Positions 10,524-40,851 of a DNA stretch of 64,000 nt are shown piece by piece (positions within the stretch are counted from its first letter, which is position 1; each line of letters starts with the position of its first letter). The DNA is from Planctomycetia bacterium. GTDB taxonomy: Bacteria; Planctomycetota; Planctomycetia; Pirellulales; UBA1268. The position numbers and the translations under genes are program-made. The notes under the pieces are model-generated. The model was not told the DNA's origin. It saw only the letters and a program-made list of their open reading frames with translations, and did not search any database. The stretch spans positions 252,623 to 316,622 of the forward strand of contig BJHK01000001.1 of NCBI GenBank assembly GCA_014192425.1. Reading direction: 5' to 3'.

Positions 10524-10605
10524 GGAGGGTAAGCGAACGGCTAGCGGTCTGACTCGAAATCAGATGCCCCGAAAGGGGTTGCGGGTTCGAATCCCGTGCC
10601 CTCCG
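10524..10605 (+). tRNA. tRNA-Ser(CGA)
   Basis: The acceptor stem GGAGGGT (10524-10530) pairs with GCCCTCC (10598-10604). The anticodon arm TCTGA-CTCGAAA-TCAGA gives anticodon CGA at 10555-10557. A long variable arm (CCCC-GAAA-GGGG) and the T arm GCGGG-TTCGAAT-CCCGT follow. The long variable arm and anticodon agree on serine (UCG codons). The D arm is short (about 2-3 bp), so an automated scan may score it low. CCA is not encoded. The tRNA lies at the left edge of the less GC-rich accessory region, a usual integration site for islands, but no duplicated 3' end was found at the far side. Confidence 0.87.
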
Positions 10606-10669
10606 CTTTGAGTTTTCGCCGGGTTTCGCAGTCCTTCGCCGGGCGTCGCACAGATCGCGTCCGGCGAGA

Positions 10670-23442: not shown

Positions 23443-23444
23443 AA

Positions 23445-25625
23445 ATGGAGGATCAGCCCGTTGCATGGTGGGTGAAGCATGAGGGACGCTCAGAAGGGCC
23501 CTGCACGCCCGACCAACTTCGTCGGTCTGCCCGCCGCGGCCTGATTAAGCCGAGCACCTTACTCTGGCGTGAGGGACTGGCCAGCCCAGAGGAAGCGGGG
23601 CGATTTAAAGGACTTTTCGCACCGCTTTCGCTCCCGCAGATCCACAATGTCCTCCTTAAGGAGTGTTGCGAACTCTTTCCTGAAGTGGAGACGGGGCTGC
23701 TCTACATCGGCATAGCACAGCCGAAGCCCGAAGTGCATGGGCGGCGTGCCCTGCGACTCGACCTTGGGATCATCACGACCGCGTTTTTCCCCAGCCTGTT
23801 GGAGGAACATCCATCGACCCCAAACGAAAGCGTTGTTGGGTTTGTTGGAGCAGTCATGGATGCCGTGGAGTGCCCCCATGAGGCTCTCACGACTGTCTGT
23901 CGCACGAGGGGAGAGCTTGCGAGCCAACTCAAGAGACTGCGTGAGTCGACGGGAGGTGTCTGGGACTTGTCGGGACACTCCATTGCAATGGAGATCTTGC
24001 GGACACATGACGCACATGCTGCGACGAGATACGCATCCGTATTGCGGCCGCTGCTGGCTAAATATGCGGAATGCTGTAGGGAGCTTGTAGATGCAGGCCG
24101 CGTGCAGGAGATACCCGCAGCAGAGACAATACTTCAGTGGCTTGAGAGGCCGAAGCCCGCGTTTGTACTTAACGAATCAGACAGTCTATCTCCAAGTGAG
24201 TATCAGCACTTCTACGAAACCTTCACTCGCTCAATGACGGAATGCCTTGCTATCGCGGGGGTGATTGCTTTTCCGAACGAGGACACTCAGCAGACTTCAT
24301 CTGAAAGTGCTGTCTCATTGATGGTGATGCGAGATCTTGGGCTTATAGCAAACGCAGTTGCACTTGCGGACGGGGCAATGAGCGGACGGGAAGCAGCTGT
24401 ACTCGTTGACTGCTTGGGAGCGATCATGAGTGGGCCGCAGGAATGGACATGGTTTGCCAGACCACCCGTACCTCTTGCGACTGTGGAACTCGCACATGAT
24501 GTGATCACAGTTGCAAGCAAGCGAACTTTCAGCGGGCAGTTCCCTTTTTCGATGGACTGTCCTTCGGGAATCACGAAGGGGCTCGCCGTGCTGGACTTTC
24601 GTGACGGAACCAGTACGGCTGTGAAGTACGCGAGTCAGATGGTGATATTTGCCAATGTGCTTGCGAGAGCAGATGGCTCCGTCAAGGCGGTCGAGAAACA
24701 CGGAATCGCACAGGTGGAAGAATGGCTGACAGCATCGCGGGAGTCGGCAGCACGAGAGATCGCCACTCCAGCAGGCGCTAGTGTACTGCGGCTAAATACT
24801 CATCTTGATGCGAGACGGCCGTTCGACGACCTCCTCGCCGACCTCCGTGCCCTGACAGGCCTCGCCACGGTCAAGAACGAAGTAGATGACTTGGTAGCCT
24901 TCCTCCAGGTACAGGGCATCAGGAAAGATCGGGGCATGGCACCTTCGGCAGTCAGCCGCCACCTCGTCTTTTACGGCAACCCAGGGACTGGCAAGACCGT
25001 CGTCGCCCGCCTTCTCTCTAGGATCTACGCCAGCCTGGGATTCCTGTCGAAGGGGCACATGGTGGAAACGGAGCGTTCGGGGCTTGTAGCAGGCTTCGTA
25101 GGCCAGACCGCGATCAAAACACGCGAGGTCTGCGACAAGGCTCGCGGAGGCGTCCTCTTTATCGACGAGGCCTACACGCTGGTTGGCAAAGATCAGGATT
25201 TTGGGCAGGAGGCCATCGATACTCTCCTGAAGTTCATGGAAGACAACAGGGACGATCTGGTCGTGGTCGTGGCGGGCTATCCCGACAAGATGGCTGGGTT
25301 CCTCAACTCGAACCCTGGCATCCGCTCCCGCTTCACCCGCTGCATGAACTTCCAGGACTACAGCCCCGAGGAACTTTCCAGCATCTTCGCAGCCTTCTGC
25401 AAAGAGGGCGGTTTCACCCTGTCCGACGGTGCGTCCGCGAAGGCCAAGGGCATCTTCGAGGAGCAGTACCTCCAGCGGGACGAGACCTTCGGCAATGCCC
25501 GCTTCGCCCGAAATCTTTTCGAGCAGTGCCTGGTGCGTCACGCCCGCAGGATCACCAAGGCGGACAACATCACCGATGGGATGCTGACGACGCTGGAAGA
25601 GGACGATGTGGAGTGGGTGGGCTAG
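23445..25625 (+). CDS. GYF_2-domain AAA+ ATPase (CbxX/SpoVK type) ending the type I operon
   Basis: The start at 23445 is two bases after the hsdM stop, with GAAGGGG as ribosome-binding site; it gives 726 residues. Residues about 5-55 are a GYF_2 (DUF4339) domain (AWWVKHEGRSEGPCTPDQLR). The middle (about 275-450) has two stretches resembling TerB-like helical domains (ALADGAMSGREAAVLVD; VLARADGSVKAVEKHG). The C-terminal AAA+ has Walker A YGNPGTGKT (about 510-518), Walker B GVLFIDEAYTL (about 573) and VVVAGYPDKM, typical of CbbX/SpoVK ATPases. Such ATPases remodel partner proteins in hexamers. A similar GYF_2 domain occurs in the membrane protein gene at 39.9 kb. A role in regulating the restriction operon or in a separate effector is inference. 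Confidence 0.85.
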   Translation: MEDQPVAWWVKHEGRSEGPCTPDQLRRSARRGLIKPSTLLWREGLASPEEAGRFKGLFAPLSLPQIHNVLLKECCELFPEVETGLLYIGIAQPKPEVHGRRALRLDLGIITTAFFPSLLEEHPSTPNESVVGFVGAVMDAVECPHEALTTVCRTRGELASQLKRLRESTGGVWDLSGHSIAMEILRTHDAHAATRYASVLRPLLAKYAECCRELVDAGRVQEIPAAETILQWLERPKPAFVLNESDSLSPSEYQHFYETFTRSMTECLAIAGVIAFPNEDTQQTSSESAVSLMVMRDLGLIANAVALADGAMSGREAAVLVDCLGAIMSGPQEWTWFARPPVPLATVELAHDVITVASKRTFSGQFPFSMDCPSGITKGLAVLDFRDGTSTAVKYASQMVIFANVLARADGSVKAVEKHGIAQVEEWLTASRESAAREIATPAGASVLRLNTHLDARRPFDDLLADLRALTGLATVKNEVDDLVAFLQVQGIRKDRGMAPSAVSRHLVFYGNPGTGKTVVARLLSRIYASLGFLSKGHMVETERSGLVAGFVGQTAIKTREVCDKARGGVLFIDEAYTLVGKDQDFGQEAIDTLLKFMEDNRDDLVVVVAGYPDKMAGFLNSNPGIRSRFTRCMNFQDYSPEELSSIFAAFCKEGGFTLSDGASAKAKGIFEEQYLQRDETFGNARFARNLFEQCLVRHARRITKADNITDGMLTTLEEDDVEWVG

Positions 25626-25627
25626 AA

Positions 25628-25664
25628 CGCGACAAAAGCAGCCCACTCACAGTTGCTTTTCGCG
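25628..25664. terminator. Putative bidirectional terminator between convergent genes
   Basis: CGCGACAAAAGCA (25628-25640) and TTGCTTTTCGCGG (25653-25664) form an imperfect stem with a one-base bulge and about a 12-base loop. It spans the 21 bp between the stops of the AAA+ gene (+) and the coiled-coil gene (-). The A- and T-containing arms would serve both strands. Confidence 0.4.
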
Positions 25665-27020
25665 GTACTTGTTTTCTCGTCGTTCTTCGTCTTGCTGCTC
25701 ATCTGCCACCACCTTCAGAGGCGTAGCCCCGGCGGCCACTGCCTTGACCACTCGAATTTCACCGCCCCGACCTGCTACGTACTTCTGAAGCAGGTCGAAC
25801 TCGCTGCACCACTTCTCCTCAGTCTGCTTGTCGGCATGTGGATCCCGGGCCGAACCTTGAACGGCAACCATACGGGCCTGGAGCCGGCCTCCCTCGAGGG
25901 TACCGGCTAGTTCAAGGGCCACTCCCGGCTTGGCTGCGTGTCTGACGACAAGCTGGCTTTTGTCTGCCCACTGAGTAGCCATTCCCTCTCGCACCTCGTA
26001 ACCGAGTTCCTTGAGGCCCTCTAGGATGGCTGCTCGACTGGCCTGGGCGGCCCGGTGCTTAATCCGCTGCTGCCGTAGGGCTTTTGCCCGATCTAGCTGG
26101 GAGCGAGCGGAATCTGTGTCTCCACGCTTCAGGTTGGCTTCGGCGGTGGTCAGTTCATTGCTGCAGGCGTCCCAGTCCTGCGTCGCTTTGGCGGCAGAGA
26201 TCTCGAGAGCGACTTCCCGTTCAAGTGCGTGCAGCTTCTGGGCTCGTGCGACAGTCGGGACTAGCTCTACCTCTAGCGACGTGAGCAGCAGGTCAGTCTG
26301 CCGGTTGTTTCCGACGGCCTCGGGCTCGCTTGCCAAAGCCAGCCGTGAGCGAAACGCCGCAGCGGCCTCGACTTGGCCAAAGCCCGCCAGAACGTCTATC
26401 TGTGATGCGATACGTGTGACCCGTGGATCGCGTAGAGCCTCCTCGGCAGTCCCTATGGCGTCAGCCGCAGACATCGACTCGCCAGTAGCACCCAAGAGCC
26501 TCGCAAGCTCCTGCTGTTGTGCGGATATTGTCGCGTCGTCTTGTGCGTAAAGTTCAGCGGCAGCACGCGAAAGGACCCGCGTCACGACTTCCGGTGAGAG
26601 ACTGCGGCCTGCTGCGGCGTCGGAGAGTATCTGGACACACTCAGCCGGAAGTTCAATCGGCATCTCACGGGCCCGGGCCAGAATTGCCTGGGCACTGAAC
26701 CGTAGTGACTGCTGCTGCCGGTGCTTGCTCGCAGTCTCAGAGGCGTGTGTCGTTAGGTGCTGCTGCACACTGGTTTCTATGGCCGTCCGCAATGCCGCTG
26801 CGGACTTCTGCAGATCAACGAAACTGCCGTCAGCTAGCATGCCGTGCAGCACATCCCGCTTGGCCTTCAGTTGTGCCAGATCCGCGGGGGCAGAAATCAT
26901 GTTTCGGTCCATGATCCTCTGCCAGTCCGCGAGGGCGGTGTCTACCTCGGCAAGGGCCACCCTGCAGGTGTCGATGACCTGCTGCAGCGGGACTACGTCA
27001 ATGACTTTTGGGCCACTCAT
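25647..27020 (-). CDS. Coiled-coil protein at the end of the helicase cluster
   Basis: A 457-residue, largely helical protein beginning MSGPKVIDVVPLQQVIDTC. Residues about 1-320 are rich in Ala, Gln and charged residues with heptad-like spacing (for example LHALEREVALEISAAKA; SNELTTAEANLKRGD). The last about 120 residues form a smaller mixed domain (VREGMATQWADKSQLVVRH; LELAGTLEGGRLQARMVAV) followed by a charged tail. GGAGA precedes the ATG at 27020, and only 17 bp separate it from the giant helicase gene, so it is very likely co-transcribed. No family is recognised; I recall short MSGPKVV-type proteins near large helicases but cannot verify this. An adaptor or scaffold role is inference. Confidence 0.75.
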   Translation of the reverse strand: MSGPKVIDVVPLQQVIDTCRVALAEVDTALADWQRIMDRNMISAPADLAQLKAKRDVLHGMLADGSFVDLQKSAAALRTAIETSVQQHLTTHASETASKHRQQQSLRFSAQAILARAREMPIELPAECVQILSDAAAGRSLSPEVVTRVLSRAAAELYAQDDATISAQQQELARLLGATGESMSAADAIGTAEEALRDPRVTRIASQIDVLAGFGQVEAAAAFRSRLALASEPEAVGNNRQTDLLLTSLEVELVPTVARAQKLHALEREVALEISAAKATQDWDACSNELTTAEANLKRGDTDSARSQLDRAKALRQQRIKHRAAQASRAAILEGLKELGYEVREGMATQWADKSQLVVRHAAKPGVALELAGTLEGGRLQARMVAVQGSARDPHADKQTEEKWCSEFDLLQKYVAGRGGEIRVVKAVAAGATPLKVVADEQQDEERRENKYREKQL

Positions 27021-27037
27021 GAATTCGTGTTCTCCGT

Positions 27038-30000
27038 CTACGGTGTATTGCTGGACGAGTCACTCAAGGCTTCGACGATCACCGTACGAAGCCGTCTCTG
27101 TTCCGACTCGCGATCGTGGTACCATGCGTATGGCGATACACGATGAACAACGCGGTATGCCCGTTCGAGTACGTCTGGCCTCCATATTTCTCGAGCCCGT
27201 GCTCGCTGAGTGAGCCTGTGGCGGGGCGGGTCACACTCAATCCCGACACCAAAAGAGCCGGTTGCAGGGTCGGTGATGGAGAAGTTCACGCCTAGAATCG
27301 GGTCATGGCTGGTGTTCACGGGCTCATACCCGAGAGACCGGATAAACCCCGCCACCGAAGCCAGAAACCCGTCGCTCTGACCGGTAGTCGATTCGCTCGC
27401 TTTCCCGGCCGTGACCAGCCTCCCTGTGAGCGAGCGGGCTTCTTCAAGCGATCCCCCTGACAAAAGCCAGGCGTACTGCAGATACGCTTGAAGATAATCG
27501 CGGGGTTTTTCCGGTTTGCGACGAGTCCGGAGCATGTCCGACACCTCGTCGATGGGCATGGAACTCACGATCACCACTTTGCGTCGGGCTCTCGTCACCG
27601 CAACATTGAGCCGGCGCTCGCCGCCTTTGTGGCCGAGGGCACCGAAATTGCGGCGGAATACCCCTTTCTCAGATGGGCCAAACGTCGTGGAGAAAAGAAT
27701 CAGATCCCGCTCGTCGCCCTGGACATTCTCGACATTCTTCACGAAGAACGACATGTCTTCGCCGCGATCGGAACGTGCCTGCTCCCGGGCATACACGATC
27801 CGGAAAGCTTCATCAGCTTCGGCACGATCCTCCAGGCACTCCTCAATCAGTTCCGCCTGCCGGAGATTGAAAGTCACGACGCCGACAGAAGGTGGACCGC
27901 CGCTTCCTTCGAGCCAGAGAGCAGCAAGGAAGTCAACGACTCTCTCGGCCTCATCTTGATTGGTCTGCTTTGTATAGACGCCCGCTACGTTCAGGTACTC
28001 GATGGGCTTTGCGGTGCGAACTGCCTCATCGGGATGACGTACCGGGACACCGAGCTCGTTCTGATAAAAAGCAGCATTGGAATACGCGATGAGTTCGCGG
28101 TATTCCGACCGATAGTGCACCTGCAGCGTCGCCCGCTTGAGGACCGCATCGCCCAGGTGCAGGAGATCCGGACAGTCCTTGATCTCGCGTCGGTTCCAGG
28201 CCTGCTCAAATGCCTGCCGTTCTTCGTCCGATGCGGTCTCGTCAGGCATATCTCCGTCGAGGACGTCACCTTCATCGGTCTCGATTCGCCCTCCAAAAAA
28301 GGTGGAGGGGGGCATCTGTTTGTCGTCACCGCTCACGACAGCAGAACGAGCTCTATAGAGACAGGGCAGGGCGTATTCGACCGGCATTTGCGAGGCTTCG
28401 TCGAAAATCACTAGGTCGAATAATCCCTTGTCCAGCGGGAGCAACTGACTTGCCACGTCAGGCGTTGTGAGCCAGACAGGCCGAAGAGACAGAAGTCCCA
28501 AATCCAGTCCGCGTCCGAAAAACTCCCTCAGCCGGATCGCCCGTGGCCCGACAAGGCGAGTGATGTCGGTCCAGGGTCCTCGGTTCTGGATGTGCTGGGT
28601 CGGCATGTCCTGCGATAGCCGTTGTCTGTTGACGGCACGTAACCGGATGTCCAGTTTGCGGAGACGATCGACTTTGGCACCCAGTTCAGTTCCCTCGGCG
28701 AGCAGACAGGGCTCTTGGGCTTCGAGGCGGTTCTTCCACCCCAGCAACGCCTCCCGTCGAATCACCTGGCGAACCAGGTCGCCGACAGTCCTGTCTCCAG
28801 TGTCAGATGCAGCTGTGCGGAGTGTTTCGCGGTACTTGGCGAGCACCGCGAAGCACTTCACTGCAGACTCGGGTAGCGTCGCCACCCTGCCACGAAACAA
28901 CTGGTAGGCTCGCAGCGTCGGCAAAGCCCGCACAATCCCAGCCACCATCTGTTTCGTTTCGTCGTTTCGGCGAATGGCTTGCGTGGCTGAATCTATCCAC
29001 TCTGGCCGCATGTAGCCCGCTAGGTCCCCGAGAGCACGCAGCGACCCCCGGACCACCCGGCCATGCTCTGCTGCGGTTGCAAAGCCGGAAAGAAGTGCCT
29101 GTAGTGGTTCGGCACCTCGCAGTGCAAGTGCCGAAGTGAGGTGGCTACCCAGAGGGCAAGTCTGCATGCTCTCATGGAGCCGCTTAGCCCTCGACAGAAT
29201 CTCCAACACCGCGTGGCCGTCGTGGGATGCGGTTGCAGCCAGAGCGTGAAGCACCGCGTACTGCTTCTCCAGGGCTTGCTTTGTGCCCTCGAGAGCGGCG
29301 TTGCGAATGGCTCGTTGCACTTCGTGCGGAAGGTCGCCGCTGGGCAACGCCTCGAGAACAGGGCGACTTACAGCTAGCCGGGCAAATACCTCGCCAACGT
29401 TTGGCTCACATGTAGCGAGTGCATGGCGGAAGTGCTGGTACGCTGCGATTGTTGGGGCTGCATCGACAATAGGGCTGAGAGCGGCGTCGTTTGAGTCTCC
29501 CGTGAATACAGCGTTTCTACGGGCGGTAACCCATTCCGCACGGAACCACGGCTCGAGGTTCTGCAAGGCTGAAAACGAGGCTTGTTGGGCGTGATGGATC
29601 TCGACCCCGGCACGTATTCCGCTCACCGTGCGAGAGACACTCGCTGGTTCGCCTGAGGTGACGGCTGCTTTGAGATCCTGTGGTTCCGGGCAACGGGCAA
29701 GATGTTGGGCAAGGTCTCTGACGGCCTTCAAGGCTGCGATCGTTTGGCCGAGTTGCTCCGGGAAAACAGCCCATACGTCTCGCAGGCACGGAACAGCCTG
29801 CCCGATAGACTTCTTTTTCTCCTCCAGCCATGTGCAAACGATGAGCCGATGGACACAAGCGGCAACAGCCTCTTGCGGTACGGCCCGCAACGCTGTCTGT
29901 ACTTCTGCAAGAGACTCGAATACGTTCCGCGGCAGCTCTGCACCGGGAGTCTGAAGCACTGCACGCAGATCCTGGTACGCATGCAGCATGGGAAGAGCAT

Positions 30001-33000
30001 CTGTTATCGGTCGCAAGTCATCGAGGAACGTTCGCCCCTCGAAGCGTGCCTGCTGACAGGCCCTGAGAAACTCTCGTTGAAACCACGGCTCACAGGCAAG
30101 TAACGCGGCCTGGACTCGCTGCGTTGCCCTCGCGTACGCCACGGCGGACTGGAACGCGTCGAGAGTCTCACGAAGACTCTTCGCTGAGCCGCTTGAGAGG
30201 CTCGCATGCAATTCCCCGCCGGCCGGACACGTCAGAACGGCCTCGCTGAGATCACGGCCACCCAACAGGGTCTCGAGGGCTTCTTGCTGTTGGGCCTGCG
30301 TGCGGCACTCCCCGAGGCTCTGGAGCAGGCTGCTGTGGGCGGCAAGCACACGCCGCTGTTCTGCACACCATGCCGCCGTCACAAGAGCACTAATCCGAGC
30401 AGCGGTGTCTGTGCTCGCACTCGAAGAGTTCCCGAGTATTGCGTCCAAAACAGGCAAACACTCCGCAACACTGGCATGTGATTGCCTGAGCCTCATCCGG
30501 ACCCGTTGAAAAGCCTCCAACTCCGAAAACGCTGCCTGGATCCCGCGTAGATCGCCGGTTGTATCGTTGCCCTGCTCGATGTCCCTTTTGCGACCCAGAA
30601 CCCATTCAGGACTGAACCAGCGCTCGCAGGTGGCTAGAGCGTCTTGCGAAATGCCGGCTGCCTGTGCCTGAACAACCGCAACGCGTTGGTCATGCAGGAC
30701 ACCCTGTACCCGAGCGCCGTTGCCTGACTCGATGGCGTCCGAAATGAGTTGTGGGTCAGGACAGGCGTTAAGAGACTGGCAAATACGCCGGGTCGCTTTG
30801 ATTGCTTTCAGTCTGGCTTGGACCTGGGCTTTGTCTGGCTCGCCTGACCACCCAAGTCTTGAGTCCATGGATTCCAGACGCCGCTTTCGGGCGAGAACCC
30901 GATGATGGCGAAACACGAGTTGCATGTAGCTGCTCCGGTCGTGCGGAGCACAGCGGCGAATCGTGTCCTGTATTGTGCTTAGTGCCCCGAGGGCTCGGAG
31001 CGTCAGTTGCTCGTAGCCCTCAACCTGTTTTCTGAATGCCTGTACTTTGTCGAGTGTGGCGATCGCCTCGACGAGCCGGCCAAGGGCAAGTGCGTCGTTG
31101 TCGGGCGGGCCGGTGCCTTCAATGCTGGCTCTACGGTCGGCGAGCCACGATGGGGCCATGTACGGTGTGACGACGTGCAAAGCCGCAAGGCTTGCCACCT
31201 TGGCCTCATGAGCGGAGGCCGCATCCTGCACGACCTCCACCAGGCGGCGTAAGGCGGCGGGAGTGGCTTTCTCAAGCATTCGCTGTCTAGGGAACACCGC
31301 AGGACACCGGGTGACGGCTGCTCGCACGCGATGGGCAGCCTGCAGAAGCTCCATCTGGCTTTTGAGGTGCCCATCGAGTTGCTCCCATAGTCGCGGCGGG
31401 GTGGGCAAACCTGTACCGGCCAAAACCTCTGCTGCTTGCCGGTAGATGTCCTGAACGGCTCGGGCGGCCGCGATGGTCTTGGACCACTCGTCAATCGACA
31501 GGCTTGGACTGGGCGAGGGCAGTGCCTTAACCCATTGCGTCCAGGTTGTGTTCGCCTTCCTATACCGTGGGCTGAGGAAGCTGAGAATGCTCTTTCGGCG
31601 TAGTACCCCAACAGTTTCTTCCAATTGCTCCAGGTACTCGGGCGACGTCTCGCAGAGTTGGTCTAGGGCTGGTTGGCTGCACGGATGCAACTGCTGTGCC
31701 GCGATCTCGGTGCGGAGCTTCTGGAGAGAACTGAAGAGCAGTTCGGCTGGACTTTTGCCACCCGGTCCGCGGTCATACTGGGAATGCATGACCGCCAGAA
31801 ATGCTGCGAGTTCCGCCGATACAGAGGCAAGAGTCGAGCCGTGTTGGGCGATCCAACTGCGGGCATTAGCAGTGTCGGCGACGCTTACTCCTGGCGGGAC
31901 CCGATTGGAGAGAGCAAGGCGGGAATGTTCAGACGCTGCCAACTGGCTCAGGCCATCACGTAGCCGTTGGGTGTGAGACGCATCCCGGGGGAAGCCTGCG
32001 AGGGATTCGAGCAGGACCGGGTCGACTGCCGAGTCCAGCCACACGCCCGTTGCCGACATACACTCCCGCTCAACATGCGAAGCGAGCGTGTCGGGCACCG
32101 AATACAGCAAGGTTTCGAGAGCCGGAACATAAGGTACCGGCTCGGAACTGGCGGAGTGAAACTTGGCCAGTAGATCTAGGAGTTTTTCATACCTGTCCAG
32201 AAGATCGCCCTGCCGTGACAGGTGCAGCAGGCAACTGGTCACTTCAGGTTGGGCTGCGATGGCGTCGACGATGTCTCGCTCTGCCGAGTCAAGCCAAGCA
32301 GCCAGCGACCCATAGTCGCGTAAGTTCCGGGCCATCTGGCTTGGTTGGCCCAAAGCCGCTCGAGCCACCTCTGCCGAGAGCAGGCATTCGAAGTCCTGCA
32401 GAAATTGTTCGCGGGTATGTTGGTCGCATCCGAACTGTGAAAGTACCCGCAGGCTGCTGTTCTCGAGGTTGGCTGAACGCCAGGCCGGCAGGAGTTCCGT
32501 ACACTCTTCACCCACGGCGGCCAACTCCCCGTCGGACAAGGAGCCGACCAAGGCTTGCAGGCGGGCTAGGGCCTGTTCGTCGGCAATATCGACGGGGCCA
32601 GCGGCCAAGGAATTCCGCAACAACCGAATGTAGGCCGAGACAAGTGCTGGTGACTCAAATGACGACAGTCGTGACGCGACCTCTGCAAGCCGTGGCTCGC
32701 TGATGGAGCTTAGAGTCGCCTGATAGCGCTCAAGCCAAGCTGCAAGTGGCTCCGCATCATGAAGCCTCAATGCAAGCGGAATCGGTGTGCCTAATGCCGT
32801 TCGGGCCTCTTCTGCGGTCACCAGGGCATTAAAGTCTCTCCTGAATGCATCGAGTGTGTGCCGAGCGGTGCCGAACGTTGCTAGGGCTCTGAGTGGAGTC
32901 TCCTCGTACTGACACTCAAGCCAGACACCCACCTGCTGGGACACCGCGTCAGCCAACTGCTCAACAGTGCTTTCGTCAAGCGGACCGATCAGTCCTCGCA

Positions 33001-36000
33001 GGGATGATGAAGGTTCTACGGAGACGAGGCCAGGGCCACGAATAGCGACAATCCGATCAAGGACGTCGATGTACCGCGATCCGAAACGGTCAGGCTGAAA
33101 TGCGGCTCCAAAGCGAGCGAAAGAAGCTAATAGCGTTTCAGTGAGGGAGGAAAACCTCGCTTCATGGTCGGCGAGCCATACGGACATCGCCTCCGGGTCT
33201 GCTGTCGGGATCGTGAACGCATTTTTCGCGATCGTCGAAAGGCGGCTCTGTTCGTGGGCCGCAAAGCTTAGAAGTGCCGCCTGAACTGCTTCCGATTCAC
33301 CCACCTGACCAGGCAAGTCGTTCATGACCTGCAGCGGGCTGTTTTCAAAGTGTGCGGCCAGCCAGACCTGAGCGTGTTGGCCGCACCGTTGTGCAAGACT
33401 TTCCACCTGCTCCGAAGAAAGCGAAGCAAGCGGCTCCGTCAGCCCCTCTACGGACAAAGGCTTGCGTATGTTGCCGGTCTGTAAGGAAACCAACGCCTCG
33501 ATCAGGCTGGCGTAACGGTTCCCGGGGCCCCCGTCCTGAAACAACTGTTGTAGCGGGGCAGTCGCCGTGATCTGGCTGGTAGTCAGCCCATCAAGAAAAC
33601 TTCGATAGGTCCGTAGCCACTCGCCCAGTGACTCCGGCGGCATGCTCGGCAGAGACGGGTGTGTTTGTGCGGGCAGTGAGCTCCGTAGAACCTCGGCAGA
33701 CTCGAAATCCTCGATTGCTGCCTGAAACTCAGAGATCGTGGCATTGTCGTGAGGAAACTGAAGAGTAGCCGACAGCGGACTGTTGTCGTACTCGGCCTCA
33801 AGCCATTGTTCAGCAACACCACGGCACGCTTCCTCCAGTTCGGCCACAGCCGCATCGGTTTGTGTGGAAAGCAGGCGGCGGAGTCTCGCTGCATCGATAG
33901 TTTCACGGGCACCGTCTTCTTCGAGAGCTATCAGGTCAGCAAGGATCTGGCGGTAAGACTTGCCTGATATCTCATCGACGCGAGCTGAGGCGTGGTACTG
34001 ATTGTCAATCTCCGTCTCAAGCTTCTCGATCTGGGAGGCGAGAGTAGCTGCTTCCCGCTCGAGATGTCGGGCCTCGTCTGGATTTGCCTGAGCCAGTGTC
34101 TCAAGCTGCTCGCGTATCGCACGAAGCAGGGGCTGACGGTCTCTTGTGACGTCTGTGACCATCGCCAGACGGGCTTCGAGGCCCTCGGCAACTAGGCGTT
34201 TTCTGACAACTTCAAGGGCTGGAAGTTTCTGGCACACGATCAGGACGCTTTTACGGCGGCCGATGCAGTCGGCGACGAGGTTTACGATCGTCTGGCTCTT
34301 GCCCGTCCCAGGCGGACCCTGAATCAGCAAGCCTGGTGCGGAACGGGCTCGTGCGATGGCCTCTTCCTGCGACGGGTCGCTGTGCGTGATGAGAAAGCGT
34401 TCGGAGATCGGGATATGCGGGCAACTGTTCTCGGACGGGCCGGTGGCTTGCGAACTGATTTCCCCGACGCGAAGCATCGGCTCAAGAGCGGAGTTCTCAG
34501 GCGGACGCTGCTTCAGTTGCCGCAGGTCTTCGACAAGAGACTGGCCCATGAACTCCATGTGGAACAGAACTGCACTGCAAATGCAGCGTTCCTCTCCGGC
34601 GGCGATGCCACTGAGATCCCGCGGGAGCGGCTGCAGCGTGCGGCTTGCCGGGGCGGCCCGCACACCAAAGGCATCCATGATGTCCGCAAGCCTGACGGCG
34701 GAACGACTCAGGATATCGTTGGCGATGGCCTGCCAGTGCTTCGCCCCCTCGATCCCAAACATGCCGGTGAATGCTGGGTTCAGCAGCACTTCTCGCCCCT
34801 CGCTGTCGAAGGCCAGCGAGAAGTCCATGCGGCTCCCAACTTGCCCGGCTACTTTGACGGGCCACAGCAGGATGGGTGCGAGTCTCGGGGCTGACTTTTC
34901 CGCATGATCCCTTCGGAGCAGGAATGGAAAACCGATGTACGTGCCGTTGATTCCCGTATCCCGCTCGTACTGCCGCGTCCGATTCAGCAGGTTCCGCATG
35001 CGTCTTTCCGGGCCTTCCGGGTCCTGGAACACATCTGCGTCGAGACGGAAGGTGCGATCGGTCCGCTGAAGAAACTGTTCGACCAGGGTTGCCGCGGCAT
35101 CGCCGTCAAGTGCAAGCTCCGTCATGTCGATGCGGGGTGTCGTCTTGGCGATCGTCATTCGGACGAGTTGCCCCCGCAAAATCGCTCCGGAAATCTTTTT
35201 CTCGAAGAATTCCAGGACTGACGAGATGTATTCCTGATGTGGTGGTTTCGCCCATTGCTCTGCAGGTATTCCCAGCAAAATCAGGATGTTCTCGATCCCG
35301 ATGCGTCGCTCCAGACGAAACTGATCTGCCCATGCATCGCAGCGTTCCACACCACACCGTGCGAAGCCACCGATTCGTTCATCGAGCAGCCCGTAGAGTT
35401 CACCTCGGGGATGAGCAAGGCTGCTCCGCATGTCCTCCGGCAAAGGCGATGCAAGGCCATACTGTTCCGCAAGATGCTCAGTAGCCTGGATAATCTCGTC
35501 GCACGAACGAAACTGATCGATGCCTGCTGCAAGCAGCAGGATCAGGTCTTCATCAGAGCAATGCTTTCGGGAGAGAATCGTTGCCAGGCTTGAATGCGAT
35601 GCGTCCGGGAAATCCAGGCGACGTGCGTCCCACGCGGCGGTGAGTTTCGCCCGGGAAGTTGAAAGGGCCAGCACCTGAAAGGCCTCGGTGGCGAGGGTGA
35701 TTTCCTGGGCCGCGGCTCGAGTCCGAATGGCTTCAGCTCGTCGGGCAAGACGTTGGAGCCAGTTGTCCGTCTGCAGCCCGTATTGGTGCAGGAGTTCCGG
35801 GATCGGTCCCGAAATTAAATCGTAGCCAGCGGCTGGGTTGTTCAGCAGCCAGGCGGGATTGACGATCGCCTCCTCAAAAATCAGGGGAAGCGTCGGGTTC
35901 AGCATCTGGAGGGCGACCCCGAGTCGGAAGCCAACGGCGGGTTCAATCCGCTGCCCCAGATCTCGGAGGCTCGAGATCGTACGGCCGTCGAGGTTCAGAT

Positions 36001-37201
36001 CCTCAGCCCAGGTGGCTAATCGGCCGTGGGCCAGAAGGTCGCAGGCTTCGCTCCAATGCAAGGCCCGTGCGGCGTCGACTGCAAAACGGCGCACGTCTGT
36101 GTAGTTCTTGCCCCCGAAGAAAATCGCGGGATCGTTCTCTGAAACAGAGCTCCCCCGCTGACGCTCCTGTACCGTCGGCGACTCTCCATCGAGCCAGGCA
36201 CGCACTTCCTTCCACTGCCACCTTTTGGAGCGATCGAGAGTGAGCAGCCCCTGCAGCAGTAGGTCGAGACGAGGATCAAGCCCCGGTGGAATCTGGGCAC
36301 CATTGGCGTTGACATCAATCAGAAACAGCTGGTCATTGATCCCCGCGAAGCACTCTCCACGGGTCACTATCCCCAGCACGATCATGCCGAGGCTCCACCA
36401 GTCGGAAGCGGAGGCCACACCCCCCATGACGGCCTCGGGAGCTGTATAGCGAGTGACCTCCAGTGGGGACTCCACGTCCAGATCGAGCTCAGAGAGCCTG
36501 CCTGACTCAAAGCCCGAGATAACAAGGTCAAGAGGCTCTCTGGCACGGACAAGAATCTTGTCTGGGCTAAGAGCACGGTGCCGTAAGCCCACCTCCATGA
36601 AAGCGGCGAGAGCCTTTGCTGTTTCGGCTACCAGGGAAAGAATCGTAGCCGTGTCGCCCGCGTCTAACTGCAATGTTGCGAGACTGCCACCATGTATCTC
36701 TTCGGTGACCTCATACACTTGGCCCTCCCAGCGACCAAAGTCCAGCAGAGCTGCTATGTGATCGGCAGAAACTCGCCGCTGCAAAGCCTCGTAGACGGTA
36801 GGGTCGGGTTCCGATCCCGGGCTGTACAGTGTCAACACGCCCTGGCGGTCATCTAAAACATGGCGAACGCGGTGGCGGGTTCGCACGACCCCTTTGGCTG
36901 GTAGGTCCGCCAAGACGCTCCATCCAGCGATCACACGAGTCGGCGGGGATGGATCAATGACGCAGTTGCAAGTACGACACAGCAGGTCCCCCTCACTGAT
37001 CTCGTGCCCGTTCGGGCACGTGAGCTGCCGCGGCTTGGCTATTTCGCCGTCGCCAATCGGAGGGTGGTCTTGATGGATGTCTTCACCGGTGAGATCCCAG
37101 CCGCAGAGGATGCCGTTTGGCTCGTTGGCACAGACAAACTCATCAACGCCGCGGGTGCTTCCGCACTTCGGGCAACGACGGTATGGGTTCAGCGTGCTCA
37201 T
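27038..37201 (-). CDS. Giant pseudokinase-SF1 helicase-nuclease protein (3387 residues)
   Basis: Domain order: two zinc-ribbon-like Cys clusters (C10PKC; C62PNG/C75RTC); a kinase-like domain (about 93-340); a DUF4011-like region to about 940; SF1 helicase Walker A GPPGTGKSQT near 963; Walker B FDEASQMP near 2930; motifs V/VI (NVQGDERDLILFS, LNVAVTRARR) near 3190-3215; and a Vsr/MTES_1575-like nuclease near 3275-3380 (GVGIECD). The kinase lacks the catalytic Asp (HRALSPDKIL, not HRD) and DFG (ISGF) but keeps APE (TAPEAV) and SDWWSLG. The nuclease has Asn where family members carry the first Asp (GVNFSI). About 1960 residues separate Walker A from B, mostly two tandem repeat families. The start overlaps the upstream radical-SAM stop (ATGA). 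It is a COG1112-like helicase; a defence role is inference. Confidence 0.85.
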   Translation of the reverse strand: MSTLNPYRRCPKCGSTRGVDEFVCANEPNGILCGWDLTGEDIHQDHPPIGDGEIAKPRQLTCPNGHEISEGDLLCRTCNCVIDPSPPTRVIAGWSVLADLPAKGVVRTRHRVRHVLDDRQGVLTLYSPGSEPDPTVYEALQRRVSADHIAALLDFGRWEGQVYEVTEEIHGGSLATLQLDAGDTATILSLVAETAKALAAFMEVGLRHRALSPDKILVRAREPLDLVISGFESGRLSELDLDVESPLEVTRYTAPEAVMGGVASASDWWSLGMIVLGIVTRGECFAGINDQLFLIDVNANGAQIPPGLDPRLDLLLQGLLTLDRSKRWQWKEVRAWLDGESPTVQERQRGSSVSENDPAIFFGGKNYTDVRRFAVDAARALHWSEACDLLAHGRLATWAEDLNLDGRTISSLRDLGQRIEPAVGFRLGVALQMLNPTLPLIFEEAIVNPAWLLNNPAAGYDLISGPIPELLHQYGLQTDNWLQRLARRAEAIRTRAAAQEITLATEAFQVLALSTSRAKLTAAWDARRLDFPDASHSSLATILSRKHCSDEDLILLLAAGIDQFRSCDEIIQATEHLAEQYGLASPLPEDMRSSLAHPRGELYGLLDERIGGFARCGVERCDAWADQFRLERRIGIENILILLGIPAEQWAKPPHQEYISSVLEFFEKKISGAILRGQLVRMTIAKTTPRIDMTELALDGDAAATLVEQFLQRTDRTFRLDADVFQDPEGPERRMRNLLNRTRQYERDTGINGTYIGFPFLLRRDHAEKSAPRLAPILLWPVKVAGQVGSRMDFSLAFDSEGREVLLNPAFTGMFGIEGAKHWQAIANDILSRSAVRLADIMDAFGVRAAPASRTLQPLPRDLSGIAAGEERCICSAVLFHMEFMGQSLVEDLRQLKQRPPENSALEPMLRVGEISSQATGPSENSCPHIPISERFLITHSDPSQEEAIARARSAPGLLIQGPPGTGKSQTIVNLVADCIGRRKSVLIVCQKLPALEVVRKRLVAEGLEARLAMVTDVTRDRQPLLRAIREQLETLAQANPDEARHLEREAATLASQIEKLETEIDNQYHASARVDEISGKSYRQILADLIALEEDGARETIDAARLRRLLSTQTDAAVAELEEACRGVAEQWLEAEYDNSPLSATLQFPHDNATISEFQAAIEDFESAEVLRSSLPAQTHPSLPSMPPESLGEWLRTYRSFLDGLTTSQITATAPLQQLFQDGGPGNRYASLIEALVSLQTGNIRKPLSVEGLTEPLASLSSEQVESLAQRCGQHAQVWLAAHFENSPLQVMNDLPGQVGESEAVQAALLSFAAHEQSRLSTIAKNAFTIPTADPEAMSVWLADHEARFSSLTETLLASFARFGAAFQPDRFGSRYIDVLDRIVAIRGPGLVSVEPSSSLRGLIGPLDESTVEQLADAVSQQVGVWLECQYEETPLRALATFGTARHTLDAFRRDFNALVTAEEARTALGTPIPLALRLHDAEPLAAWLERYQATLSSISEPRLAEVASRLSSFESPALVSAYIRLLRNSLAAGPVDIADEQALARLQALVGSLSDGELAAVGEECTELLPAWRSANLENSSLRVLSQFGCDQHTREQFLQDFECLLSAEVARAALGQPSQMARNLRDYGSLAAWLDSAERDIVDAIAAQPEVTSCLLHLSRQGDLLDRYEKLLDLLAKFHSASSEPVPYVPALETLLYSVPDTLASHVERECMSATGVWLDSAVDPVLLESLAGFPRDASHTQRLRDGLSQLAASEHSRLALSNRVPPGVSVADTANARSWIAQHGSTLASVSAELAAFLAVMHSQYDRGPGGKSPAELLFSSLQKLRTEIAAQQLHPCSQPALDQLCETSPEYLEQLEETVGVLRRKSILSFLSPRYRKANTTWTQWVKALPSPSPSLSIDEWSKTIAAARAVQDIYRQAAEVLAGTGLPTPPRLWEQLDGHLKSQMELLQAAHRVRAAVTRCPAVFPRQRMLEKATPAALRRLVEVVQDAASAHEAKVASLAALHVVTPYMAPSWLADRRASIEGTGPPDNDALALGRLVEAIATLDKVQAFRKQVEGYEQLTLRALGALSTIQDTIRRCAPHDRSSYMQLVFRHHRVLARKRRLESMDSRLGWSGEPDKAQVQARLKAIKATRRICQSLNACPDPQLISDAIESGNGARVQGVLHDQRVAVVQAQAAGISQDALATCERWFSPEWVLGRKRDIEQGNDTTGDLRGIQAAFSELEAFQRVRMRLRQSHASVAECLPVLDAILGNSSSASTDTAARISALVTAAWCAEQRRVLAAHSSLLQSLGECRTQAQQQEALETLLGGRDLSEAVLTCPAGGELHASLSSGSAKSLRETLDAFQSAVAYARATQRVQAALLACEPWFQREFLRACQQARFEGRTFLDDLRPITDALPMLHAYQDLRAVLQTPGAELPRNVFESLAEVQTALRAVPQEAVAACVHRLIVCTWLEEKKKSIGQAVPCLRDVWAVFPEQLGQTIAALKAVRDLAQHLARCPEPQDLKAAVTSGEPASVSRTVSGIRAGVEIHHAQQASFSALQNLEPWFRAEWVTARRNAVFTGDSNDAALSPIVDAAPTIAAYQHFRHALATCEPNVGEVFARLAVSRPVLEALPSGDLPHEVQRAIRNAALEGTKQALEKQYAVLHALAATASHDGHAVLEILSRAKRLHESMQTCPLGSHLTSALALRGAEPLQALLSGFATAAEHGRVVRGSLRALGDLAGYMRPEWIDSATQAIRRNDETKQMVAGIVRALPTLRAYQLFRGRVATLPESAVKCFAVLAKYRETLRTAASDTGDRTVGDLVRQVIRREALLGWKNRLEAQEPCLLAEGTELGAKVDRLRKLDIRLRAVNRQRLSQDMPTQHIQNRGPWTDITRLVGPRAIRLREFFGRGLDLGLLSLRPVWLTTPDVASQLLPLDKGLFDLVIFDEASQMPVEYALPCLYRARSAVVSGDDKQMPPSTFFGGRIETDEGDVLDGDMPDETASDEERQAFEQAWNRREIKDCPDLLHLGDAVLKRATLQVHYRSEYRELIAYSNAAFYQNELGVPVRHPDEAVRTAKPIEYLNVAGVYTKQTNQDEAERVVDFLAALWLEGSGGPPSVGVVTFNLRQAELIEECLEDRAEADEAFRIVYAREQARSDRGEDMSFFVKNVENVQGDERDLILFSTTFGPSEKGVFRRNFGALGHKGGERRLNVAVTRARRKVVIVSSMPIDEVSDMLRTRRKPEKPRDYLQAYLQYAWLLSGGSLEEARSLTGRLVTAGKASESTTGQSDGFLASVAGFIRSLGYEPVNTSHDPILGVNFSITDPATGSFGVGIECDPPRHRLTQRARAREIWRPDVLERAYRVVHRVSPYAWYHDRESEQRRLRTVIVEALSDSSSNTP

Positions 37202-37848
37202 CGGATGAGGTGCTCAGTCGTACGGCTGGCGATTCCCTGGGCTGCCAGCAGCTTCTGGAGCCTCTCCAGATCGCCGCGGCGAGGGATTCCGGCCATCCAC
37301 GCGGTACCATCTCCGTCGACCATGACGTCTAGGCGGTCATCTCGACCGTCTCGCGGCCGCTGAAACTCACCAAACCGCAGACGCCCTAGGTCCGAGAGCG
37401 TATGGAGCGTCTGGTTGTCGCTGCCCATCAGTGGCTTTGTCTGGGGGGCGGACAGGTCAAAGGGTTCAGAAATCACGGCGTCCACGAGGCCCTGCCAGTT
37501 GGTGAGCCAGGGCATGAGCGACGCAAATGCTAGTCCCGAATAGACGAGCACATCGCTGCCGGGGCGGAGAATCTGCCTCAGGCCACGAAGCAACTCGCCC
37601 AAGCCGTCCGGTTGCTCAAAAGGCTCGCCGCCGGAAATCGTTATCCCATCGGCCATGCCCGCGTACGCAGCCACTCCCGCAAGCACCTCTGCGACGGGAA
37701 TGCGATCTGCGTTCACCGACCACGTATCGACTGATATGCAACCTGGACAGCGAATGCTGCACCCCTGAAACCATATCCCCAACCGCTGTCCGGGGCCCAG
37801 GGTCGTGACCGGAAAATGAACACGGGAAATTGCAATACTGCGACCCAC
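37198..37848 (-). CDS. Radical SAM 4Fe-4S activase-like protein
   Basis: I place the start at GTG 37848, preceded by GAGAGG and just after the AAA+ stop; a longer frame to 37920 would overlap that gene by 61 bases. This gives 216 residues. C30, C34 and C37 (GCSIRCPGC) form the Cx3Cx2C cluster that holds the 4Fe-4S cluster for SAM cleavage. Next come GITISGGEPFEQP (the GGE SAM-binding motif) and DVLVYSGL. It most resembles anaerobic ribonucleotide reductase or pyruvate formate-lyase activases (NrdG-like), but no glycyl-radical enzyme is nearby. The C-terminal third (about 140-216) is extra to short NrdG proteins. Its stop overlaps the giant gene start by ATGA, so its product is probably needed with the giant protein. 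Confidence 0.85.
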   Translation of the reverse strand: MGRSIAISRVHFPVTTLGPGQRLGIWFQGCSIRCPGCISVDTWSVNADRIPVAEVLAGVAAYAGMADGITISGGEPFEQPDGLGELLRGLRQILRPGSDVLVYSGLAFASLMPWLTNWQGLVDAVISEPFDLSAPQTKPLMGSDNQTLHTLSDLGRLRFGEFQRPRDGRDDRLDVMVDGDGTAWMAGIPRRGDLERLQKLLAAQGIASRTTEHLIR

Positions 37849-37859
37849 GTAGCTGCCTC

Positions 37860-39758
37860 TCAGCTGTGTTCGAGCATCAGGGTCGTCACGGCTGAATCGT
37901 CTAGGCCCGTGACAGTCCATCGAGATCCGGGCTGTGCGTCCCGGTCGAACAGACTCCTTGCCAGCGGGTTCACCAGGTGAGACTCCACCTGATTGCGGAT
38001 TCCTCGCCCACCGTTTGAGAGATCGGCAAGACAGAGGTTCTCTAGCTGTTCGCGTACGGGCTTTGCGATATCGACCTGTATGCCCGTGGCGGCAAGATCC
38101 TTGAGCGTAGCCTTCACCATCTGCTCGAAGATTTCACGGGCAATCGCTGGGCGTATGAAGTCGAAGACAATGATGTTCTCGCCGATCCGGTTCAGGATTT
38201 CCGGCCTATTGAGAACAGCCTTGAAGTGGCGGTCGATTTCAGCCCGGACCTTGGACTTTACGGCATCGGGGGGCTCATCCTGCGACACGTTCAAGACGCG
38301 ATTGCCCTCAGCGTCTTGCCGGTAAATGCCAAGGTTTGACGTGAAAATGATGAACGCCTCCGAGAAATACACCCGGTCACCACGTCCCGAGGTGAGCACG
38401 CCGTCGTCAAGAATCTGCAGAAACTTGTCGAGGATTCTTGGGTGAGCCTTCTCGATCTCGTCAAACAGGATCACACAGAACGGCTTCTCGCGGACGGCGT
38501 TCGTGAGTTCACCGCCGACGTCATAGCCGACATAGCCGGGAGGAGCCCCGATAAGCCGCTGGTCAGAGTGCTCCGCGGAGAACTCTGACATGTCGAAGCG
38601 GATATAGGCCGATTCGTCGCCAAAAAGCAGATTCGTGATGGTCTTCGCAAGTTCTGTCTTGCCGACACCGGTAGGACCCGCCAGAAACGTGACACCTCTC
38701 GGGCGGCCACCACGCTTCGAGGCTCCGACGCCTGTGATGGCTCGCTTGATAATGTCTAGGGCATGCGTGACGGCATGGTCTTGGCCTCGAACACGCTCCG
38801 AAATTGATGCCTTCGCGTTTCGGATCTTGTCTCGATCGATCTTTCGCCACTGGTCGTCTGTGACCCCGACCTTATAGCGACGCACGGCATCTGAGATTCG
38901 GTTGAACGAAAGGTTTTCGTTACGCCCGAGTTGAGCAACGGCGTGTAGGTCCGACAGCAACAGCCCCTCAGTCTCTTCCACGAATTCAGACTGAGCAGTC
39001 GCCAGAGCTTCCGCAGTAGCCTGAGCGGCACCGGGCAGCGTCTTGAGCAGAGCCGGAATAACGGATCGGCGGGCGATATTGTCCGGTTTTGCAACTGGAA
39101 TATGGCGAATCCTGGGATTGCCCATCAGCAGCCAGTCGGGAAGATCCCCCTCTTTGTCCACGATCCACAAGACGGTGTTAAAGAAAGGCTTGCCTTCCGG
39201 GCCGATTGGACGGGCTTTGGCGGTGGCGGAATAGATGTGAGCCCGCGAAAAGAACGGGTGCTCGTCACGAGAAAGCGAGTCACTCCGGACGACCAGTCGA
39301 GCGGCGAAGTCCACGATCAACGCTATGGGTTGGCCGTCGGCGAAAACGACGCGGTCTAAAATGCGGCCGAGTGAGACAAGATCTGTTGCAGTCTGTGCTG
39401 CGGGCTCGCACTTGAGACGTGTGAGAAGCTCGTCTGCAGGTTGAAGACCGCCTGTTATTGATACCAGCCGTGCCCCTCGAACGCAGTCGATGGAAAGGAC
39501 TTCGGCATATCCGGCGGCGTACAACTCGCGAGCTATGGCCGCCTGGAGTGGAATTGTGCTGAAAATACCTGGTTGAACCTCATATGCCTGCAGGTCCTGC
39601 ACGCTTCCGGACAAGACAAACTGACTCTTGAGGGGCAAAAAACGGAGCAGGTCGCGAAGCCACCGTGGTTTGTGTTCGCCGCGGCCTGCCGTTGAGCCTG
39701 TGTGCTGGCCTGCGAGTACGGCTGGCTGACCGTCGCTGGGCACTACTGGCTGATTCAT
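37860..39758 (-). CDS. ClpB/AAA_2-type AAA+ ATPase with degenerate N-terminal AAA-like half
   Basis: The start chosen is ATG 39758 behind GGAATACAGCAG; an in-frame ATG at 39806 would add 16 residues. 632 residues. The C-terminal half is a Clp-type AAA+ module with Walker A GPTGVGKT (361-368), PPGYVGYDVGG pore-loop region, Walker B VILFDEIEKAHP (D433/E434), sensor IFTSN and a C-terminal D2-small domain. Residues about 33-240 look like an AAA fold that has lost Walker A (IALIVDFAARLV; TVLWIVDKEGDLPDWLLMGN keeps a Walker-B-like strand and sensor-like MGNP). ClpB/ClpA-type machines thread proteins. It lies 11 bp upstream of the radical-SAM start. It lacks the ClpB N-terminal domain and coiled-coil propeller, so it is not ordinary ClpB. 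Confidence 0.88.
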   Translation of the reverse strand: MNQPVVPSDGQPAVLAGQHTGSTAGRGEHKPRWLRDLLRFLPLKSQFVLSGSVQDLQAYEVQPGIFSTIPLQAAIARELYAAGYAEVLSIDCVRGARLVSITGGLQPADELLTRLKCEPAAQTATDLVSLGRILDRVVFADGQPIALIVDFAARLVVRSDSLSRDEHPFFSRAHIYSATAKARPIGPEGKPFFNTVLWIVDKEGDLPDWLLMGNPRIRHIPVAKPDNIARRSVIPALLKTLPGAAQATAEALATAQSEFVEETEGLLLSDLHAVAQLGRNENLSFNRISDAVRRYKVGVTDDQWRKIDRDKIRNAKASISERVRGQDHAVTHALDIIKRAITGVGASKRGGRPRGVTFLAGPTGVGKTELAKTITNLLFGDESAYIRFDMSEFSAEHSDQRLIGAPPGYVGYDVGGELTNAVREKPFCVILFDEIEKAHPRILDKFLQILDDGVLTSGRGDRVYFSEAFIIFTSNLGIYRQDAEGNRVLNVSQDEPPDAVKSKVRAEIDRHFKAVLNRPEILNRIGENIIVFDFIRPAIAREIFEQMVKATLKDLAATGIQVDIAKPVREQLENLCLADLSNGGRGIRNQVESHLVNPLARSLFDRDAQPGSRWTVTGLDDSAVTTLMLEHS

Positions 39759-39885
39759 CTGCTGTATTCCGAGGTTTTCGGGTGGCCTGAAAAGCCTGAG
39801 GGCCATTCTTCAGAGGGGCAGTCTGCCATTAGTGCGAGGGGGCAGCCAGAGCCTGGCTGCGTCGCGGCGACAAATCGAGGCGACT

Positions 39886-40851
39886 TCATTCTCTCACCAC
39901 GGTCGTCTTGCCCTCTGTCCACGGATTCCCGCTCAGGGCCCCGAGCACGCAGAAAAAGTGCAGAACAAGCCCCGGCACGAACAACGCCAGGTAGCCCAGG
40001 AAGACGAAGACGAACCACACGATGCCGTTGAGGATCTGGCCCTTGTAGAGCTGGCCAAGCCCGGGCACGAAGAAGCTCAAAACCGCCGCGAGACCGGGGC
40101 TCCAACGTTGGATCGGCGGCTGGTTGATGACCACCACCTGGCTCGCGCCTGCCGGGGCAGCGGGCACGTATTCAGCCTGTTGGTTGGCCAACACGGCTGC
40201 CGGGACGGGCGGGGCTTCTCTGGCGGCCTGCTCCTGGGCGATCCTGGCGGCCTCAACGTCGAGCCGCTGCTTCTCCAGAGCCAGTTCCTTGGCCCGCAGG
40301 CGACGCTCCGCGGCCTCCTTTGACGCCTTGCCGATGTTCTCAATGGCCTGCCCAACCAGCCGGCCGACCTCGACGTAGAGCCCAACCGCCGCGATGAAGA
40401 GGCCGCTCAGGGTGAACGCCAGAGCAATCCTGGATTGGGCGATCACCGTGAAGGCGATGCCCAAGGCTGCCAGGAACCCGCCGCAGGCCGCAACGATGTG
40501 TCGCGGGGCAAGTTGATCCCAAGGGATTTCAGGGGCTCTGGGCCGGGTGTGCCGCCGGGTTTCCTTCGGCGAGGGTGCGGGAATACTGGGCGGCGTGGTG
40601 GCTGTTTCGGACCGGGTCGGGGCCTCTTCGCGAGTTGGTCTCAGGCCGGCAATCGTCTTGTGCAGGACATCCCCCAAGGGATTCGCGAAAACGCCATCTG
40701 CTGATCGGGCAGGCACCCAGTCAACCATTCCCGACTGCCACACGAGGTCGTCGGGGGCCAGCCAACCATCCGCCGCCATGCTCTTGAGCTTGGCGAGCGA
40801 GACGGGGCCGCGCCGCTCGCTGCTTTTCACGTAGTACCAGGCGTCAGGCAT
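39886..40851 (-). CDS. GYF_2 domain membrane protein with TM2-like C-terminus
   Basis: A 321-residue protein. Residues 1-60 are a GYF_2 (DUF4339) domain (WYYVKSSERRGPVSLAKLKS; LVWQSGMVDWVPA). Two transmembrane helices lie at about 130-175 (FLAALGIAFTVIAQ, FTLSGLFIAAVGLYV). A charged coiled coil (AERRLRAKELALEKQRLDVE) and a Pro/Ala linker follow. The C-terminus is TM2-like (VLSFFVPGLGQLYKGQILNG). The protein is probably in the inner membrane with the GYF_2 domain cytoplasmic. It is the first gene of the minus-strand cluster and 127 bp upstream of the AAA+ gene. The GYF_2 match with the AAA+ protein of the type I operon suggests a shared partner. Membership of the downstream operon is likely but not proven. 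Confidence 0.8.
   Translation of the reverse strand: MPDAWYYVKSSERRGPVSLAKLKSMAADGWLAPDDLVWQSGMVDWVPARSADGVFANPLGDVLHKTIAGLRPTREEAPTRSETATTPPSIPAPSPKETRRHTRPRAPEIPWDQLAPRHIVAACGGFLAALGIAFTVIAQSRIALAFTLSGLFIAAVGLYVEVGRLVGQAIENIGKASKEAAERRLRAKELALEKQRLDVEAARIAQEQAAREAPPVPAAVLANQQAEYVPAAPAGASQVVVINQPPIQRWSPGLAAVLSFFVPGLGQLYKGQILNGIVWFVFVFLGYLALFVPGLVLHFFCVLGALSGNPWTEGKTTVVRE

Follow-up and report, generated by a model that had tools for sequence, protein, structure and literature searches.

The closest described relatives of the large effector-like protein at this locus are the anti-phage helicase-nucleases Hhe (NF042953), ProA (NF058533) and PDC-S37, which unite a DUF4011 domain, a split SF1 helicase and an MTES_1575/Vsr-like nuclease in one protein. 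Type I Mokosh (MkoA plus MkoB) likewise combines a kinase-type domain with a COG1112-type helicase. The smaller proteins considered here resemble NrdG and the PFL-activating enzymes, with which they share the CxxxCxxC and GGEP motifs in a small single-cluster activase architecture, and the unfoldases ClpB and ClpC, with which they share two AAA+ rings and a second ring (D2) equipped with Walker A, Walker B and a GYVG pore loop. Operons of the DUF1257-DUF2997-rSAM-Ycf46-type AAA kind also place an AAA+ protein and the same kind of radical-SAM (rSAM) enzyme beside small alpha/beta proteins with a conserved Cys.

Here, we analysed a stretch of 64,000 nucleotides (the window) from a Planctomycetia bacterium, in which a tandem AAA+ protein, an NrdG-like rSAM enzyme, a giant pseudokinase-helicase-nuclease and a coiled-coil protein with an N-terminal MSGPK motif are encoded side by side. 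Compared with Hhe, ProA and PDC-S37, the giant adds N-terminal zinc ribbons and a pseudokinase, and the operon adds conserved AAA+, rSAM and MSGPK partners. In contrast to type I Mokosh, the kinase of the giant is dead, a PLD protein is missing and the AAA+, rSAM and MSGPK genes are extra. Unlike the NrdG and PFL activases, the operon rSAM is linked to a ClpB-like AAA+ protein and no glycyl-radical partner was found in the genome; unlike ClpB and ClpC, the AAA+ protein has no Walker A in its first ring (D1), shows no match to a Clp N-domain and is bound to an operon. The DUF1257/DUF2997 operons differ in their AAA+ family, and no helicase or nuclease was seen in them.

Gene layout and genomic setting

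An ORF check of the window established that five minus-strand reading frames proposed in an earlier note on this DNA are real. They encode the MSGPK coiled-coil protein (25647..27020, 457 aa), the giant (27038..37201, 3387 aa), the rSAM enzyme (37198..37848), the AAA+ protein (37860..39806, 648 aa) and a GYF_2/TM2 membrane protein (39886..40851, 321 aa), which we judge to be a neighbour outside the system. The close spacing that had been described was confirmed, with a 4-bp ATGA overlap between the rSAM and giant genes and 17 bp between the giant and MSGPK genes. An 11-bp gap claimed between the AAA+ and rSAM genes holds with the likely rSAM start, a GTG at 37848 in the same place as in relatives, but not with the longest rSAM ORF, which extends to 37920 (240 aa) and overlaps the AAA+ gene by 61 bp. 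Profile searches with Pfam and NCBIfam returned AAA_2 and ClpB_D2-small for the AAA+ protein, Fer4_12/NrdG-like for the rSAM enzyme, Pkinase, DUF4011, AAA_11/AAA_12 and MTES_1575 for the giant and GYF_2 for the membrane protein, all in agreement with the earlier domain calls, except that TM2 was a weak match.

The 16S rRNA gene of the genome contains perfect matches to the targets of the planctomycete probes Pla46 and EUB338-II, which places the host among the planctomycetes. The stretch from McrBC to the AAA+ gene (11778-39806) has a GC content of 58-62% compared with ~71% in both flanks. It also holds McrC and a McrB-type AAA protein together with a type I restriction-modification (R-M) set, and is probably an acquired defence-type island. 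A tRNA-Ser (cga) gene (10524-10606) lies just outside the low-GC stretch. The McrB-type AAA+ protein (13106-15763, minus strand) adjoins McrC and carries N-terminal DUF4357/RAMA-like domains, and within the type I R-M set a 429-aa gene of no Pfam or PADLOC family (20666-21955, plus strand) separates HsdS from HsdM. The convergent neighbour of the operon (23400-25625, plus strand), outside the conserved unit, combines GYF_2, weak TerB and SpoVK/CbbX-type AAA+ domains.

Comparison with catalogued systems

PADLOC 2023 and NCBIfam (June 2026) were used as references. Neither contains a full-length match to any of the four proteins, and their PADLOC matches arise through shared domains only. The claim that no named system has this gene set stands for both collections and for the open papers covered by the search. 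The giant scored 295 bits against the Hhe model (cut-off 2000) and 460 bits against the ProA model (cut-off 1500), and its Rhizobium relative 332 and 489 bits, respectively. Its best stretch of similarity to MkoA joins aa 2924-3216 to MkoA 788-1077 of 1112 and is limited to the helicase. No match to the MkoB-type PLD protein was found among the operon and neighbouring proteins scanned, as the earlier note had stated, and membership in Mokosh was rejected on these two grounds. The effector half of the system belongs to a type already described; the half made up of AAA+ and rSAM, to which we assign a licensing role below, is undescribed as far as this could be tested.

The AAA+ protein and the radical-SAM enzyme

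The description of the AAA+ protein as a degenerate ClpB type proved correct. D1 (aa ~45-330) has no Walker A, and the single Walker A of the protein is located in D2 (aa ~335-640) together with the Walker B sequence DEIEKAH and a GYVG pore loop; from these D2 motifs, the protein can be expected to thread protein substrates. Its AlphaFold model (mean pLDDT 70) aligned over both rings of ClpC/ClpB in Foldseek (~650 columns). When viral contigs were scanned with the AAA alignment, matches reached only 31-43% and nearly all were limited to the ClpB-like D2 half.

CSIRCPGC (the CxxxCxxC motif) and GGEP are present in every type-A rSAM, that is, in every copy from the conserved four-gene unit described below. 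The best NCBIfam match is NrdG, with 64.8 bits against a cut-off of 126.1, and the best matches in phage records are annotated as anaerobic-RNR activators. The genome of the window (G000, 96% complete) contains no detectable Gly_radical (PF01228) or NRDD (PF13597) protein, the controls being positive, which leaves an "activase" without its classical substrate. A profile search for NRDD proteins was likewise negative in G167 and in the Bradyrhizobium and Burkholderia genomes. From these searches, the rSAM substrate probably lies inside the operon. A glycyl-radical sequence within the operon was considered as the target and rejected: in a motif scan of the operon proteins, RxxG[YF] occurred twice in the giant and in none of the others, and nothing further spoke in support.

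The giant protein

The giant begins with two zinc ribbons, followed by a pseudokinase domain (aa 141-333; 36203..36781), a DUF4011 domain matched in Pfam (aa 724-811; 34769..35032) and the first part of the SF1 helicase with Walker A GPPGTGKS (aa 941-1090; 33932..34381), all on the minus strand like the remainder of the gene. A helical insert (~aa 1092-2860; 28622..33928) separates this part from the second helicase half (aa 2887-3226; 27524..28543), which carries Walker B DEASQ and motif VI, and the protein ends in an MTES_1575 nuclease domain of the PD-(D/E)XK, Vsr-like type (aa 3279-3374; 27080..27367). The matches to PF13195, PF13086/PF13087 and PF18741 exceed the curated Pfam cut-offs (45.8 bits versus 38.2 for MTES_1575) and the SF1 helicase motifs are intact. 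Relatives measure ~2090 aa versus 3387 aa in the window copy. The extra ~1300 aa stem from the insert, where two helical repeat units that are single in relatives are multiplied to ~4-5 copies each.

The beta3 Lys and the DFG Asp (Gly in the window copy) are missing in every aligned giant, which upholds the pseudokinase assignment, and the HRD Asp is lost (HRA) in the window copy alone. The window copy also differs from its relatives in the nuclease domain, where the conserved Asp of LDFA is replaced by Asn. This exchange makes cleavage by the window copy doubtful, and the protein may bind instead of cut, or may be decaying.

The MSGPK coiled-coil protein

The MSGPK protein consists of the N-terminal MSGPK strand, which is invariant across all aligned copies, long helices and a C-terminal alpha/beta domain. 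Cys19 and, in the C-terminal domain, Cys405 are invariant among five aligned proteins. The structural model (mean pLDDT 78) shows mostly helices and a C-terminal sheet domain; it found no Foldseek match (best E 0.43), and a Pfam search of the C-terminal domain was also negative. The protein is specific to the system (1/392 same-phylum genomes), and no relatives were found in viral contigs. The type-A C-terminal domain has a homologue in a Methylocaldum protein (hhalign E 5e-10) and shows a weak likeness to its counterpart in Aristaeella. A KA1-type fold (Chk1, SNF1, SOS2, MARK3, SAD) was aligned to the strand and C-terminal domain with VIA-align Z of 6-7, among other alpha/beta folds, which we considered too weak. 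By eye, the layout of the domain also resembles DUF1257/DUF2997 and a coiled-coil protein of the type B operons described below; profile comparisons were not significant in either case, and both candidates were dropped.

Recurrence and conservation of the four-gene unit

The order AAA+ - rSAM - giant - MSGPK coiled coil on one strand, here called type A, was found in six other loci (L021, L026, L027, L028, L234 and L236), which belong to Rhizobium leguminosarum (L021), Caballeronia (L026), Bradyrhizobium hipponense (L027), Burkholderia territorii (L028) and two Pseudomonadota genomes (G771 and G603). Recurrence in unrelated genomes had been set beforehand as a test of the system. The four-gene order recurs across phyla, with ~60-65% identity between the planctomycete AAA+ protein and its relatives in Pseudomonadota, and is not a chance arrangement. 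Further Rhizobium plasmid records have gene positions compatible with this order. The AAA+ and rSAM genes accompany every complete type-A copy, and their trees agree on the main splits. Incomplete copies also occur: in G649 the giant is frame-broken and the coiled coil was not detected, and in Microvirga all that remains, behind a transposase, is the coiled coil and the final part of the giant. The system is sparse, as the type-A AAA+ protein was found in 4/349 Pseudomonadota genomes, the centre genome counted in.

Between Caballeronia and G771 and between Caballeronia and Burkholderia, dN/dS amounted to 0.05-0.20 for all four genes, with dS near saturation in the Burkholderia pair, which indicates that the four genes are kept by selection. 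Judged from sequence, the unit is a co-inherited gene set of fixed order under purifying selection, in which intact D2, rSAM and helicase motifs are combined with a D1 and a pseudokinase that are dead. Current annotations of these proteins read "AAA family ATPase", "4Fe-4S single cluster domain-containing protein" and "hypothetical protein".

Proposed function and alternative explanations

With confidence that is evenly balanced, we propose a horizontally transferred immune-type system of four genes, in which the giant is the effector, the MSGPK protein a scaffold or gate, and the AAA+/rSAM pair a module for maturation and licensing. We infer the defence role from the acquired island of low GC content, which also contains Mcr and type I R-M genes, from the Hhe/ProA-like effector and from the carriage on plasmids. 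The zinc ribbons and the pseudokinase would form a sensory or regulatory front end on the DUF4011-SF1 helicase-REase, which would translocate on invader nucleic acid and cut, and the MSGPK protein would hold or gate the giant. We further infer the substrates of the rSAM enzyme and of the AAA+ protein and the order of the steps: the ClpB-like D2 ring would pull or remodel a partner protein, for which the MSGPK protein is the best candidate, and the rSAM enzyme would install a radical-made modification on it, such that threading and radical modification together would mature or release the gate. Points against this reading are the low scores of the giant with the Hhe and ProA models, PADLOC matches through shared domains only, the exchanges in the kinase loop and nuclease of the window copy, which may have abolished cutting there, the related AAA+ proteins with no rSAM in the flank read, and the non-significant comparison of the MSGPK C-terminal domain with the type B coiled-coil protein.

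It is unlikely, in our estimate, that the locus is a single-effector defence of the Hhe/ProA or Mokosh kind with the AAA+, rSAM and coiled-coil genes as dispensable accessories. The DUF4011-SF1-REase core common to Hhe and ProA and the partial MkoA matches speak for it, but no complete type-A copy lacks AAA+ and rSAM, which moreover work with different helicases elsewhere, the PLD partner is missing and the full-length cut-offs are not reached. We regard as equally improbable a quality-control or stress system for nucleic acids or proteins (repair, plasmid maintenance) with no anti-phage role. The ClpB-like unfoldase, the resemblance of the SF1 helicase to SMUBP-2 and the frequent location on plasmids would fit, whereas the patchy distribution (1/60 close relatives), the transfer across phyla, the adjoining McrBC and type I R-M genes and the anti-phage relatives of the giant point away from it.

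The GYF_2/TM2 gene had been counted as a fifth member, and its shared strand and the 79-bp gap to the AAA+ gene would suit one membrane-anchored system of five genes. This we consider very unlikely: homologues occur in 16/40 relatives without the system, several of them full-length at 54-58%, whereas an AAA+ protein over the E 1e-100 cut-off is present only in its own genome (1/60 close relatives), and the GC content of the GYF_2/TM2 gene (65.5% vs 57.6%) is like that of the 41-43 kb stretch. Moreover, no such gene was seen upstream of the other inspected type-A loci. On the basis of the relatives and the flank-like GC content the gene was left out of the system; it is a lineage resident. Least credible of all is that the rSAM enzyme simply activates a glycyl-radical enzyme of anaerobic metabolism and its neighbours are coincidental, since NrdG is indeed the best NCBIfam match but falls well below its cut-off, the gene order is conserved and the searches for glycyl-radical and NRDD proteins in the window genome, and for NRDD proteins in G167, Bradyrhizobium and Burkholderia, were negative.

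AAA+/rSAM pairs with other partners

The AAA+/rSAM pair of the proposed licensing module was also found next to other proteins. In nine type B loci, the order is MkoA-like SF1 helicase - PIN or other protein - coiled coil - AAA+ - rSAM, most of them with PIN, and the helicase match to MkoA is stronger than that of the giant. The hosts are Moellerella, Polaromonas, Acinetobacter, Photobacterium, Leisingera and four genomes of the same phylum as the window. Type C comprises an active kinase, FHA, PP2C and an MSGPK-type protein with AAA+ and rSAM, complete or partial, in Aristaeella, a Lachnospiraceae MAG, Methylocaldum, G060 and G459. In Aristaeella, the active kinase, a DUF4011-SF1-MTES_1575 protein, the MSGPK protein, rSAM, AAA+, FHA and PP2C are encoded by separate neighbouring genes. 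By its domain content, the window giant appears as a fusion of functions that are separate in Aristaeella, which argues for their joint action. Beside some related AAA+ proteins (Clostridia L030-L032, G451 and G626), no rSAM was detected in the flank read, so that beyond types A and B the pairing does not hold throughout.

We advance as a possibility, less likely than not, that the pair of degenerate-D1 AAA+ and NrdG-like rSAM is a general maturation module that licenses several unrelated immune effectors (the pseudokinase-helicase-REase, the MkoA-like helicase with PIN and the kinase/FHA/PP2C sets) through radical modification of a scaffold protein, so that immunity would be controlled by post-translational radical chemistry. 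If true, mobile systems in which a motor that threads proteins and a radical-SAM enzyme are paired with varied helicase-nucleases form a large class that is still uncatalogued, orphan "activases" would gain a function where the genome has no glycyl-radical enzyme, and it becomes testable whether protein radical chemistry switches an immune effector on or off.

Individual loci of these types showed further features. In L208 (5197-8289), the second type B protein has a Ppx/GppA phosphatase domain in place of PIN, which suggests that this position is an exchangeable effector slot. Type B is carried by plasmids in Acinetobacter (L219, pNDM1_010055, named as an NDM-1 plasmid) and Moellerella (L022, a conjugative plasmid). 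In Methylocaldum (L029, 1981-9845), a kinase, a DUF4407 membrane protein, the MSGPK protein, AAA+ and rSAM are followed by genes that resemble type III CRISPR (Cmr), as judged from their sequence. As a parallel arrangement of AAA+ and rSAM, the operons with a Ycf46-like AAA+ protein, DUF1257, DUF2997 and rSAM were found on plasmids of Paenibacillus (L024, 9676-12543) and Arthrobacter (L025, 9076-12699).
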